This document shows positions 3,650 through 52,773 of a stretch of DNA of 64,000 nucleotides, one piece after another. Source of the DNA: an uncultured Cohaesibacter sp. (GTDB lineage: Bacteria; Pseudomonadota; Alphaproteobacteria; Rhizobiales; Cohaesibacteraceae). The DNA lies in assembly GCF_963676275.1 (NCBI RefSeq), contig NZ_OY781091.1, forward strand, positions 1,280,775 to 1,344,774, in the 5' to 3' direction. The notes under the pieces were generated by a model that did no database searches, had not been told where the DNA came from, and saw only the letters and a program-made list of their open reading frames with translations. The number at the start of each line of letters is the position of its first letter. Position 1 is the stretch's first letter. The position numbers and the translations under genes are program-made.

Positions 3650-4159
3650 TCAGTCGAACAGGCGGTCGACTTCGTCCTGTGCCGTTGGATGATCGATCGC
3701 CAGCATCCAGTCGGTCGCATTGGCTGTGTCATTGATCAGGGCACTGACCCGGTCAATCAACGGCCTGACTTCAGTAGAAGCCATGAAAGACACGCTTTCC
3801 AGCGCACCTCCTGATACGTCTCCATTAAGGTCGACGATGCGTTCGGTGAGCGTCAGAATCTTGCCGTCTATTTCATGAACCAGCGACTCCAGCTTTTCCT
3901 GAAGCTCGGGCTTTACCGCATCATAAAGCGTAATGGCCAGTTGCTTTTCCTTGAAGGTCGATTGTTCGAAATAGTCCGGATAATTCATCGGGCGCCAAGC
4001 CTCGATGTCTTCGGCGCATTCGGGCATGGAAGGCAACAGCTCAATGAGCATCAGCACTTCGTTGAAGTGATTGAGATAGTCGGTTGCAAGCAATGTTGAC
4101 GGATTGATGTTGGCATCTTGCAACAGCTCAGCATCAGGAAGGACAGTCATGTCTGACAT
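3650..4159 (-). CDS. Orphan protein with CheZ/FliM-like C-terminal tail
   Basis: A 169-residue soluble, acidic, mostly helical protein with no signal peptide or membrane segment. I do not recognise the body. The last ten residues (AQDEVDRLFD) resemble the tail of the CheZ encoded in this window (NQDDIDALFG) and the N-terminal CheY-binding peptide of FliM, which has the general form SQxEIDALL. The middle region (~90-130, KLESLVHEIDGKILTLTERIVDLN) is amphipathic and could form a helical bundle or coiled coil. Codon use is like its neighbours. A chemotaxis-linked role is inference from the tail only; there is no che gene next to it. Confidence 0.65.
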   Translation of the reverse strand: MSDMTVLPDAELLQDANINPSTLLATDYLNHFNEVLMLIELLPSMPECAEDIEAWRPMNYPDYFEQSTFKEKQLAITLYDAVKPELQEKLESLVHEIDGKILTLTERIVDLNGDVSGGALESVSFMASTEVRPLIDRVSALINDTANATDWMLAIDHPTAQDEVDRLFD

Positions 4160-4468
4160 CTTGAAACTCTCAACGCAACTTCAACAGCTTTGTGGCGACT
4201 GGTCAGGAAACCTGATATGCCTTCGCAACCGCGCACCGAAAAGGGAGATGCTTTATCCCCCACATCAGTCGCATCGCGATCGGTATCAATATTACAGCCT
4301 CATTCTTGGTCATGGTCATCAGACTGCCATCCTCGGTTTCCGAACCGGACCACTTTAACCATAAGGTGCTATAGTTTCCAAATACTTGACGGTTGCCCAT
4401 GTCGGTGAAAAAGATCAAACAAGATAAAGAATTGGCAAACTTGCGAAAATGAAGAGATTTGTACAAAT

Positions 4469-5287
4469 ATGACCGGAAGATTGCATTTAGTTGCTGAAGA
4501 TATTGATTTCATGGAAGTATTTGCCAATTCAGATACATTGACTGGCTTGCACCCCATGCCTGCCAGACATAATGTCGCACCGACCGATCCTGTTTTGACA
4601 ATCCTGCATGAATATGGGCAGCGCTGCGCCCGTTTGATGAAATGGTCTTTTGTACCCGATTGGGTAAAAGATCCGCGCGAATTCTCCCTTCTCACCATTG
4701 CGCGCGTCGAAGGAGTAGAGAGAAAACCATCCTTCCGCAATGCAATCCGTTACCGTCGCTGTCTGGTGCCTGTTACGGGATTTTACGAATGGCAACGCAA
4801 CAAGGTGACTGGTGAAGCGATACCCCATTTCTTTCGCAAGGAGGATGCCGGGCTATTTGCCCTTGCTGGCATTTGGGAATCATGGATGGGGCCCAATGGT
4901 GAGGAATTTGACGGGCTTGCCATTTTGACGAGGTCTGCCACCGCGCCATTCAGAGCGATTTCAGATCGTTTGCCGCTGATTGTGGCTCCCGAGCATCATG
5001 AGATCTGGCTGGATACGCGCTCGGGGCGCTTCGAGGATGCGCGTCCCTTGCTGAAAAGCCCGTCACCGGATGATCTCGTCGCCTTTGCGGTCTCTGACCG
5101 AGTCAATCATCGCGGCAATGACGATCCCTCTCTCACACTGCCGCGCCATGGCCGCGACACTGAACGGGTGAGGGTCTCTTTTGCCAAGCCAGACAAACAG
5201 CAGAAGGGCAAAGAACAAGACAGTTCTAGGCCAGCAAAGCCGAAGAAGGAAGATGCTGAGGATAATGGGCAGCTTGATCTATTCTAG
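4469..5287 (+). CDS. SRAP/YedK-family paralogue lacking catalytic residues
   Basis: A 272-residue protein of the SRAP (YedK/HMCES) family, whose active members cross-link to abasic sites through Cys2. The fold is clear: RHNVAP (34-39), the IARVE region (77-81), GFYEW (104-108), the ILTRSA strand (152-157) and SDRLPLIV (165-172). Compared with E. coli YedK, Cys2 is Thr2, the Asn of NARxE is Ile77 and the His of IHDRxP is Ser165; only Glu107 remains. No in-frame alternative start restores an N-terminal Cys. A basic, low-complexity tail (~210-267) ends in QLDLF, the sliding-clamp binding consensus. Probably a non-catalytic DNA- or clamp-binding paralogue; the annotation 'SOS response-associated peptidase' would mislead. 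Confidence 0.85.
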   Translation: MTGRLHLVAEDIDFMEVFANSDTLTGLHPMPARHNVAPTDPVLTILHEYGQRCARLMKWSFVPDWVKDPREFSLLTIARVEGVERKPSFRNAIRYRRCLVPVTGFYEWQRNKVTGEAIPHFFRKEDAGLFALAGIWESWMGPNGEEFDGLAILTRSATAPFRAISDRLPLIVAPEHHEIWLDTRSGRFEDARPLLKSPSPDDLVAFAVSDRVNHRGNDDPSLTLPRHGRDTERVRVSFAKPDKQQKGKEQDSSRPAKPKKEDAEDNGQLDLF

Positions 5288-51218: not shown

Positions 51219-51615
51219 GGTGCGAACTCCCATCTGGACAACGTCATTGCTTCTGAAAGGCCATTCCTCTCATGACGTAGCTCGAATCAACACATACTCG
51301 CGCAAACGTTAGCGACAACAGGTAAAGAAGTCATTGTCCAAACCGTCTACATCCTTCCTCTTCTCGCTGGAAGGGGAGAATCTGACGAAACGGACCGTCA
51401 ACGCAGCTTTCCAAGCTGCCTCTCTTCTGCGACCATATCTGGACCATTTGAAGACGCCTTGAAACGACAAACGGGAAGAAATAAATTTGTTCTTGCTATG
51501 TTCCTGTTTCTAGATCATCCTCTCCTGAGAACAAAGCGCTAACAGAGTCGGTGTGCATGCGCAAGAGCCAGCCTCGATGCGCGCCAGTCCCGACGAGCGA
51601 TGGAGAATGATAAAG
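51219..51615. promoter_or_regulatory. Divergent upstream region
   Basis: About 395 bases between the ClpP-like and radical SAM genes. It is AT-rich around 51290-51340 and 51470-51500. The radical SAM frame is open into this region, but no better start is seen. No RNA or repeat is evident. Confidence 0.4.
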
Positions 51616-52773
51616 ATGGTCGCCGCCAAAGCCATTGCCTGCGCACCTGCTGGCCAGAATATCGATGCTACCGCCGAATATCAGGTTGATCCGAGCCTGC
51701 ATAAGGGCAAGCGTATCCGGGGCCGGGGGGCGCGTTCCAACAAGTCAGGCCGTTTCGAGCCCTATCAGGTCGAACCGGTGGATGATGGCTGGTCATCGCC
51801 CGATCATGAGGAAGATCTGCCACCCCTGCGCACGGAAGTGCAGGAGGAGAAATCCCGCACCATCATCACCCGCAATGATTCTCCTGATATTCCCTTTGAT
51901 CGCTCCATCAATCCTTATCGCGGCTGTGAGCATGGCTGCGTCTATTGTTTTGCGCGGCCGACCCATGCCTATATGGGCCTGTCCGCCGGGCTTGATTTCG
52001 AGACCAAGCTTTTCGTCAAGCCCGACGCGGCCATCCAGCTCAGGAAGGAACTCTCTGCTCCCGGCTATCGCCCGCGGCCAATTGCGATTGGCACCAACAC
52101 CGATCCCTATCAGCTAGTGGAGCGGAATTATCGCCTGATGCCGGATATTCTCGATATTCTGGAAGAGACGGGGCATCCGGTTTCCATCACCACCAAATCC
52201 GCCCTTATCCTGCGGGATCTGGATCGGCTCAAAAAGCTCAACGAGCGCAATCTGGTCAAGGTGGCCGTGTCCGTGACGACGCTGGACAACCGACTGTCCA
52301 GAGCGATGGAACCGCGCGCGGCCAGCCCGAACCGCCGCCTTGAAACCATCGCCGGTCTTGCTGAAGCGGGCATCCCCACCGCCGTTCTGGTCGCCCCCAT
52401 CATTCCGGCGCTGAATGACAGCGAGATGGAAGCCATCCTGAGTGCTGCCTATGAGGCGGGAGCGAGAGAGGCGGGAGCGATCTTGTTGCGCCTGCCCAAT
52501 GAGGTCGGCCCGCTGTTTCAGGATTGGCTGCTGCATCATTATCCTGATCGCTATCGTCATGTAATGAATGTCTTGCGATCCATGCGTGGTGGCAAGGATT
52601 ATGACAGTCGTTCCGGCTACAGAATGAAAGGCACCGGCCCTTTTGCAGAACTTCTGCATAAAAGAAAGGAGCTTGCGTGTAAAAAGCTGGGATACAACAC
52701 AAAGCCAACAAGGCTATCCTTGAAATATTTTGTACAAACAAAGACAAATGAGGCTCAGTTGTCATTATTTTGA
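51616..52773 (+). CDS. PA0069-type radical SAM protein (SPL-related)
   Basis: A ~385-residue radical SAM protein of the PA0069 family, related to spore photoproduct lyase. The N-terminal GRGARSNKSGRFE is the family marker. The [4Fe-4S] cysteines are CEHGCVYCFARPTHAYMGLSAGLDFE (~102), followed by GTNTDPYQ, the SPL-like substrate loop, and VSITTKSALILRDLD. The C-terminus is exactly QLSLF, the bacterial sliding-clamp binding consensus. The function of the family is unproven; DNA repair is suspected from its SPL relation. The start is uncertain (51607 or 51616); GGAGA spacing favours 51616. Confidence 0.88.
   Translation: MVAAKAIACAPAGQNIDATAEYQVDPSLHKGKRIRGRGARSNKSGRFEPYQVEPVDDGWSSPDHEEDLPPLRTEVQEEKSRTIITRNDSPDIPFDRSINPYRGCEHGCVYCFARPTHAYMGLSAGLDFETKLFVKPDAAIQLRKELSAPGYRPRPIAIGTNTDPYQLVERNYRLMPDILDILEETGHPVSITTKSALILRDLDRLKKLNERNLVKVAVSVTTLDNRLSRAMEPRAASPNRRLETIAGLAEAGIPTAVLVAPIIPALNDSEMEAILSAAYEAGAREAGAILLRLPNEVGPLFQDWLLHHYPDRYRHVMNVLRSMRGGKDYDSRSGYRMKGTGPFAELLHKRKELACKKLGYNTKPTRLSLKYFVQTKTNEAQLSLF

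Follow-up and report, generated by a model that had tools for sequence, protein, structure and literature searches.

We show here that a gene of an uncultured Cohaesibacter sp. encodes a natural SRAP-derived protein in which three of the four active-site residues of the YedK/HMCES family are replaced, while the catalytic glutamate is retained. The gene lies in the window, by which we mean the whole stretch of 64,000 nucleotides that was analysed. An altered SRAP of this kind is found in 10 of the 18 genomes of the genus and is under purifying selection, with omega around 0.09. It is the native orthologue at its locus and stands beside a second, intact SRAP elsewhere in the genome. Judged by its sequence, the C-terminus is a motif of the clamp-binding type, a feature missed by the initial annotation. 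Tentatively, we regard the protein as a clamp-tethered, SRAP-derived factor that engages ssDNA, probably at abasic sites, reversibly and without a stable thiazolidine cross-link.

An altered active site maintained in ten genomes

The open reading frame begins at the first ATG, GTG or TTG past the upstream stop codon, and Cys2 can therefore not be restored by any upstream start. The 272-residue protein carries an SRAP domain by profile (Pfam PF02586, 175.4 bits with a cut-off of 27.1), and phmmer matches it to solved YedK, HMCES and other SRAPs. The sequence of E. coli YedK was taken from NC_000913. In the alignment with YedK, Cys2 is replaced by Thr2, Asn75 by Ile77 and His160 by Ser165, while Glu105 corresponds to Glu107 (Table 1). 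Of the features of a cross-linker, the window protein thus lacks Cys2, Asn75 and His160, and has Glu105, the SRAP domain and the fold. An AlphaFold2 model is of moderate quality (pLDDT 74.9, from 12 sequences; the other four models range from 47.7 to 65.6). Foldseek places this model closest to HMCES/YedK structures in the PDB (best E 4.0e-17), and all 20 matches with E<=0.001 are HMCES, YedK or structural-genomics entries that phmmer also matched. Superposition on the Schiff-base structure of YedK C2A (8d2m, TMt 0.84) supports the predicted fold of the window protein, not an activity. The initial annotation had described the changes at Thr2, Ile77 and Ser165 and the persistence of Glu107 and the fold, and this proved exact in the alignment with YedK and SRAP homologues. 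It had also held that the standard cross-link cannot be made; we agree that a thiazolidine should be impossible without Cys2.

Table 1. Positions of the altered SRAP gene, its codons of interest and neighbouring elements (window coordinates unless a locus is named).
Feature	Position	Strand	Remarks
p169, divergent neighbour	3650..4159	-	169 aa; adjoins the SRAP gene in the window and in G018 (tblastn)
Upstream element with TTGAC box, possible promoter	4366..4391	+	conserved; putative promoter role
SRAP-derived protein, active site altered	4469..5287	+	272 aa, ATG start, begins MTGR
Thr2 codon (canonical SRAP Cys2)	4472..4474	+	orthologues T 9, S 1; Cys in 65/65 canonical, with N-termini placed at M-x-G-R or MC motifs, which biases canonical rows toward Cys2
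Ile77 codon (canonical SRAP Asn75)	4697..4699	+	orthologues S 5, T 4, I 1 (window); Asn in 61/65 canonical
Glu107 codon (YedK Glu105), retained	4787..4789	+	Glu in 10/10 orthologues and 65/65 canonical
Ser165 codon (canonical SRAP His160)	4961..4963	+	orthologues S 6, T 4; His in 65/65 canonical
Linker, variable, low-confidence	5153..5269	+	about residues 229-267; length and sequence differ among orthologues
C-terminal QLDLF, consensus beta-clamp-binding motif	5270..5284	+	residues 268-272
Exact GAACN7GTTC box, L044	3315-3329		between p169 and altered SRAP
Exact GAACN7GTTC box, L047	4912-4926		between p169 and altered SRAP
Exact GAACN7GTTC box, L048	4699-4713		between p169 and altered SRAP

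A PF02586 search of 61 genomes, the window genome and relatives, gave matches in 55 genomes and 81 rows in total. The two rows of G027 and those of G030, G046, G047, G051 and G052, seven in all, were never read. L002 duplicates the window gene, and eleven further loci were added to the SRAP set. L073, L077, L078, L080 and L081 are divergent or partial and stay outside the alignment, L074, L075, L076 and L079 had no phmmer match at 1e-5, and the second matches in G042:C1826 and G042:C1382 were not extracted. The resulting alignment holds 10 altered and 65 canonical SRAPs, YedK being among the latter.

All ten altered proteins have lost C2, N75 and H160 and kept E105, at 44-65% identity of the orthologues to the window protein. 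A sequencing error or a wrong start had been named beforehand as what could overturn the initial interpretation. The former is excluded because 10/10 orthologues carry changes at these three sites, the latter by the lack of an upstream start codon. Twenty-nine columns reach a conservation of 90% or more among the 65 canonical sequences, and 24 of these are kept in at least nine of the ten altered proteins. Exactly three, C2, N75 and H160, are lost in all ten, and all of them belong to the four-residue active site; by our own arithmetic, a random draw of three columns would fall wholly within the active site in about 4 of 3654 draws. The remaining two columns are changed in 9/10 altered proteins, at YedK positions 60 (R to K) and 163 (M to L). 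Taking the three sites in ten proteins together, 29 of the 30 changed cells are Ser or Thr, and both residues occur at each site. Such a pattern would fit a pocket rebuilt with small hydroxyl residues for recognition of a different lesion or ligand. However, one of these sites is occupied by Ile in the window protein, and we consider this reading, which rests on sequence, quite improbable.

Codon models of the ten orthologues yield an omega of 0.092 (MG) or 0.087 (GY) for the altered clade. The intact paralogue of these ten genomes gives 0.079/0.080, and the four canonical orthologues give 0.113/0.119. Among the 22 of 45 pairs listed, dS was saturated or above 1.8 in 13; the other nine, none of which includes the window genome, gave omega values of 0.07-0.11. 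A pseudogene is ruled out by omega. Overall, the altered lineage is the faster one (codon tree length 9.66 vs 5.07 for the intact copies). That the protein has been kept intact, as proposed before, is borne out by an omega of about 0.09 across one clade of ten genomes.

The native locus and a second, intact SRAP

The gene order in the window is the end of smc, a variable GFA/methyltransferase position, GST, p169, SRAP, porin, p289, lspA and ileS. GFA, methyltransferase and GST were named by Pfam; the genes that we take to be smc, porin, lspA and ileS were named on reading the sequence, and p169 had no Pfam match and no NCBIfam match above the cut-off. By tblastn synteny, this order is common to the nine other altered loci (L044-L052). 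Four congeners with a single SRAP (L085-L088) have the same order, with an MCGR protein retaining N, E and H as the SRAP; the contig of L086 stops after this gene. In a member of another genus of the same family (G018), p169 likewise adjoins an MCGR SRAP, and the other tested neighbours were not found within 15.5 kb. A representative of a third genus (G019, 87% complete) gave no SRAP match in the PF02586 search. Since the locus is common to the altered and the canonical SRAPs of the congeners, the native syntenic orthologue is the altered gene, with the intact copy as an addition, a point that the initial annotation had missed.

Phylogenies agree with this assignment. A tree of five neighbouring proteins unites the ten altered genomes in a single clade (UFBoot 100); support is 57-79 for the nodes by which the four other genomes fall just outside it, and 44-58 for the deepest nodes. 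The SRAP tree supports monophyly of the ten altered proteins (98) and unites them with the four canonical congeners (99). A recent duplication within the genome was considered and ruled out, because the SRAP tree places the altered genes next to the canonical congeners (99) and the intact copies next to L069 (99).

An active paralogue elsewhere in the genome had been suspected from the window alone. The genome search indeed recovered an active-looking one, at G000:C1:1106082-1106711, with an MCGR start and N, E and H intact. This intact type is present in 14/14 genomes whose native gene has been altered or lost and in 0/4 canonical congeners, one of which (G005) has a completeness of only 64%. 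Together with L069, which comes from another family, the 14 intact copies group at 99; without L069 their grouping has a support of only 50. The intact copy may have arisen by transfer or by an ancient duplication followed by losses.

In four further congeners (G006, G008, G013 and G016; loci L094-L097), p169 and the porin gene are about 250 bases apart, and no SRAP match was found between them. These relatives already without the native gene, together with the faster evolution of the altered lineage, might indicate that the altered gene is redundant beside the intact copy and on its way out. Yet, ten genomes keep an open frame with an omega of about 0.09 and a conserved tail, and we hold decay through redundancy to be very improbable.

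Upstream of the SRAP gene, at a distance of about 80-100 bases in the window, GTTTCCAAA together with a TTGAC block is found in 13 of the 14 altered and canonical loci; it has diverged in G015. SOS control was also considered. The sequence GAACN7GTTC, which we take to be the alphaproteobacterial LexA box, occurs in the window 16 times with at most one mismatch, with 19.19 expected by chance, and none of these matches lies between p169 and the SRAP gene. With a window count below chance and no box in this gap, SOS control by a LexA box was ruled out. Only in 3/14 loci, all from closely related genomes, is there an exact box in the gap between p169 and SRAP, at about -265.

A clamp-type tail and the remaining chemistry

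The model of the window protein drops below a pLDDT of 50 at residues 229-253 and 258-272. The protein thus has what a clamp client should have, a canonical clamp-binding motif (QLDLF) in a region predicted to be flexible. According to the available portions of a 2024 clamp review (PMC11139829), QL(S/D)LF is the consensus clamp-binding motif of 2001, the general pentamer is Q-phi-x-[LM]-[FL], and QLDLF is the strongest clamp-binding peptide. Exact QLDLF ends 7/10 altered proteins, and Q[LF]x[LM][FL] ends 10/10 of them vs 0/14 intact paralogues. In our main count, which allows L, M, I, V, A or F at the second residue, the tail is also present in 4/5 canonical orthologues of the family and in 18/45 other SRAPs; the fifth canonical orthologue, from G017, has QLSLF further in and not at the end. 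Omission of F at the second residue changes the counts to 8/10 altered proteins, 0/14 intact copies, 3/5 canonical orthologues and 16/45 other SRAPs. Shuffled tails gave an expectation close to zero (0.002 of ten), and YedK has no clamp-type tail. As the tail is ancestral, its retention is no proof of a new role.

Any Q-x-x-[LMF]-[FL], a relaxed tail, ends 35 of the 45 other sampled SRAPs. HMCES is linked to PCNA by binding, and by comparison the relaxed tail may point to a route of bacterial SRAPs to the replication fork; a passage on HMCES and PCNA was not found in the open-access literature searched. In eleven canonical alphaproteobacterial SRAPs (L003-L013), the Q, L and F of a terminal Q-x-x-L-F are invariant behind linkers of different length. 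A relaxed tail of the form Q-x-S-L-F is seen on the intact copy (L065, L066 and L067) in G008, G013 and G016, that is in 3/4 genomes without the native gene. Overall, 3/14 intact copies have such a tail, and it occurs in 0/10 genomes with the altered gene; because the genomes are related, this association with loss of the native gene is a hint and not a test.

A DNA pattern for Q[LF]x[LF]F followed by a stop matched 14 times in the whole genome and 24 times in the reversed control, and the raw genome count is therefore no evidence. Three of the 14 matches end open frames of more than 100 residues: the SRAP gene, a radical SAM protein and Cas2. The radical SAM protein, of the PA0069 family (521.1 bits, cut-off 360), is encoded in the window at 51553-52773 (+) and ends in QLSLF. 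The Cas2 protein has 121 residues, lies by a type II Cas1 (L137 1501-1866 (-), G000 near C1:3266828) and has the C-terminus ...NPSQLALF. Among the open-access literature matches listed, we found no report of an SRAP as clamp client or of an SRAP clamp motif. The portions of the clamp review at hand mention neither SRAP nor YedK (PMC11139829), and the single paper among the matches with both 'YedK' and 'sliding clamp' has YedK, in its available text, in the reference list only.

A clamp-type tail in 10/10 altered proteins, combined with impaired chemistry, could mean that the protein has given up DNA binding and acts only through other proteins, for instance by competing for the clamp or by serving the intact SRAP as a scaffold. 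This we consider improbable. Apart from the three lost positions, the conserved SRAP columns are kept, including R4, R77, T149 and R162 (YedK numbers) in 10/10 altered proteins; we take these four to be DNA-contacting residues, and their retention would be unexpected if the DNA face had been released.

What chemistry might remain can be judged from YedK mutants. In the available portions of that study (PMC9436759), Cys2 closes the thiazolidine and Glu105 is an essential residue. The C2A and C2S variants form no stable adduct, yet make a Schiff base via the N-terminal amine, and C2A cleaves AP DNA. E105Q in the C2A background slows Schiff-base formation 10-fold and cleavage 25-fold, while in C2A/H160Q the Schiff base arises at the rate seen with C2A and cleavage is 2.5-fold slower. 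The effect of N75A is modest at internal AP sites, but this variant is poor on 3'-PUA ends, and H160Q with a blocked N-terminus/Cys2 does not cleave AP DNA (PMC9436759). A function 'without chemistry', as stated in the initial annotation, is thus too strong a claim: variants at position 2 still form the Schiff base, C2A still cleaves, and the essential Glu105 is the residue kept here. Furthermore, a 2021 paper attributes to YedK, by its title, a role through ssDNA binding, and a non-cross-linking role would hence not be strange for this fold.

The loss of C2, N75 and H160 with retention of E105 is expected of a protein that is unable to shield permanently and maybe still reacts reversibly. We tentatively favour such a clamp-tethered hit-and-run SRAP and rank a true AP lyase next. 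Removal of Met1 would expose Thr2, and the conserved SRAP residues would hold ssDNA. Going by the YedK mutants, any Schiff base that Glu107 and the Thr2 amine could form would be transient and reversible at most, as a thiol for ring closure is lacking. The QLDLF tail would dock on DnaN. Permanent shielding could pass to the second, intact SRAP, and the native clamp-tailed copy would then work in a hit-and-run manner or as a placeholder, perhaps holding abasic ssDNA at the fork or passing it on.

An AP lyase would go further, with a Schiff base of the Thr2 amine and Glu107 leading to beta-elimination with turnover on abasic ssDNA, and with the tail bringing the protein to forks or gaps; this would be the opposite of shielding by the intact copy. 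By analogy to active C2A, to the C2S Schiff base and to the 25-fold and 2.5-fold slower cutting of C2A with E105Q and H160Q (PMC9436759), such an activity is conceivable, and it would suit a protein that retains Glu alone of the catalytic residues and has, in 10/10, T or S at position 2, residues that permit removal of Met. We nevertheless regard it as unlikely: ring opening would be slowed by the loss of His, Cys2-blocked H160Q did not cleave, cutting of ssDNA at a fork would be dangerous, and no new catalytic residue is seen.

Several lines of evidence argue for the reversible, clamp-tethered factor: the loss of three residues with Glu kept in 10/10, the 24/29 conserved columns, an omega near that of the intact paralogue, the locus of the canonical orthologue, the second SRAP in 14/14 vs 0/4 genomes, the tail in 10/10 vs 0/14 proteins, the relaxed tail of the intact copy in 3/4 vs 0/10 genomes, the 8d2m fold match, and the mutant chemistry and 2021 title, as far as these sources were available. 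Speaking against it are the faster altered lineage, the moderate structure model and the ancestral tail, which has an aliphatic second residue in 8/10. Moreover, Glu107 may be retained for fold reasons, the lack of cleavage by Cys2-blocked H160Q means that His loss may leave little chemistry, and N75A YedK is poor on 3'-PUA ends. It is possible, if doubtful, that a suicidal cross-linker, tethered to the clamp, has become an AP lyase or an enzyme working through a transient Schiff base while the second, intact SRAP shields, so that shielding and processing are split between two SRAPs.

Relation to known systems

A profile of the ten altered proteins had matches in 358 of 397 genomes of the order, and the best 30 matches were made into loci: the ten altered genes, L041 and 19 that were read (L109-L127). 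Among the matches listed, the ten altered proteins score 424.9-514.1 bits, the four canonical congeners 309.4-326.3 and the rest at most 272.1. MCGR is present in 18 of the 19 loci read and N, E and H in 19/19, L122 having no readable N-terminus; in this non-exhaustive screen no altered SRAP was seen outside the genus among these 19. No paper on a naturally Cys2-less SRAP was among the literature matches listed. The available portions of the 2013 family paper describe Cys, His and Glu as absolutely conserved (PMC3765255), and a clade without Cys2 contrasts with this description of the second residue. A selected Cys2-less clade of ten genomes, whose sister species still carry the canonical orthologue at this locus, offers a natural experiment on non-cross-linking roles of SRAPs.

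With the SRAP/YedK/HMCES family (PF02586) the window protein shares the fold, most family-wide conserved residues and the catalytic Glu; it differs by the absence of Cys2, Asn75 and His160 and by a linker and QLDLF tail, both absent in YedK. The YedK C2A and C2S laboratory mutants have the same kind of change at position 2 and keep the Glu, whereas the window protein is natural, is changed at Asn and His as well, and is described here from its gene. In its C-terminal Q-phi-x-[LM]-[FL] after a flexible stretch it resembles the beta-clamp clients Pol II, Pol IV and Pol III alpha, as these are presented in the accessible parts of the clamp review (PMC11139829). Although they belong to other protein families, SulA, ImuA and ImuB, inactive paralogues of the SOS network, offer a parallel in the portions of the family paper at hand (PMC3765255), being catalytically altered relatives that are kept for a role in repair.
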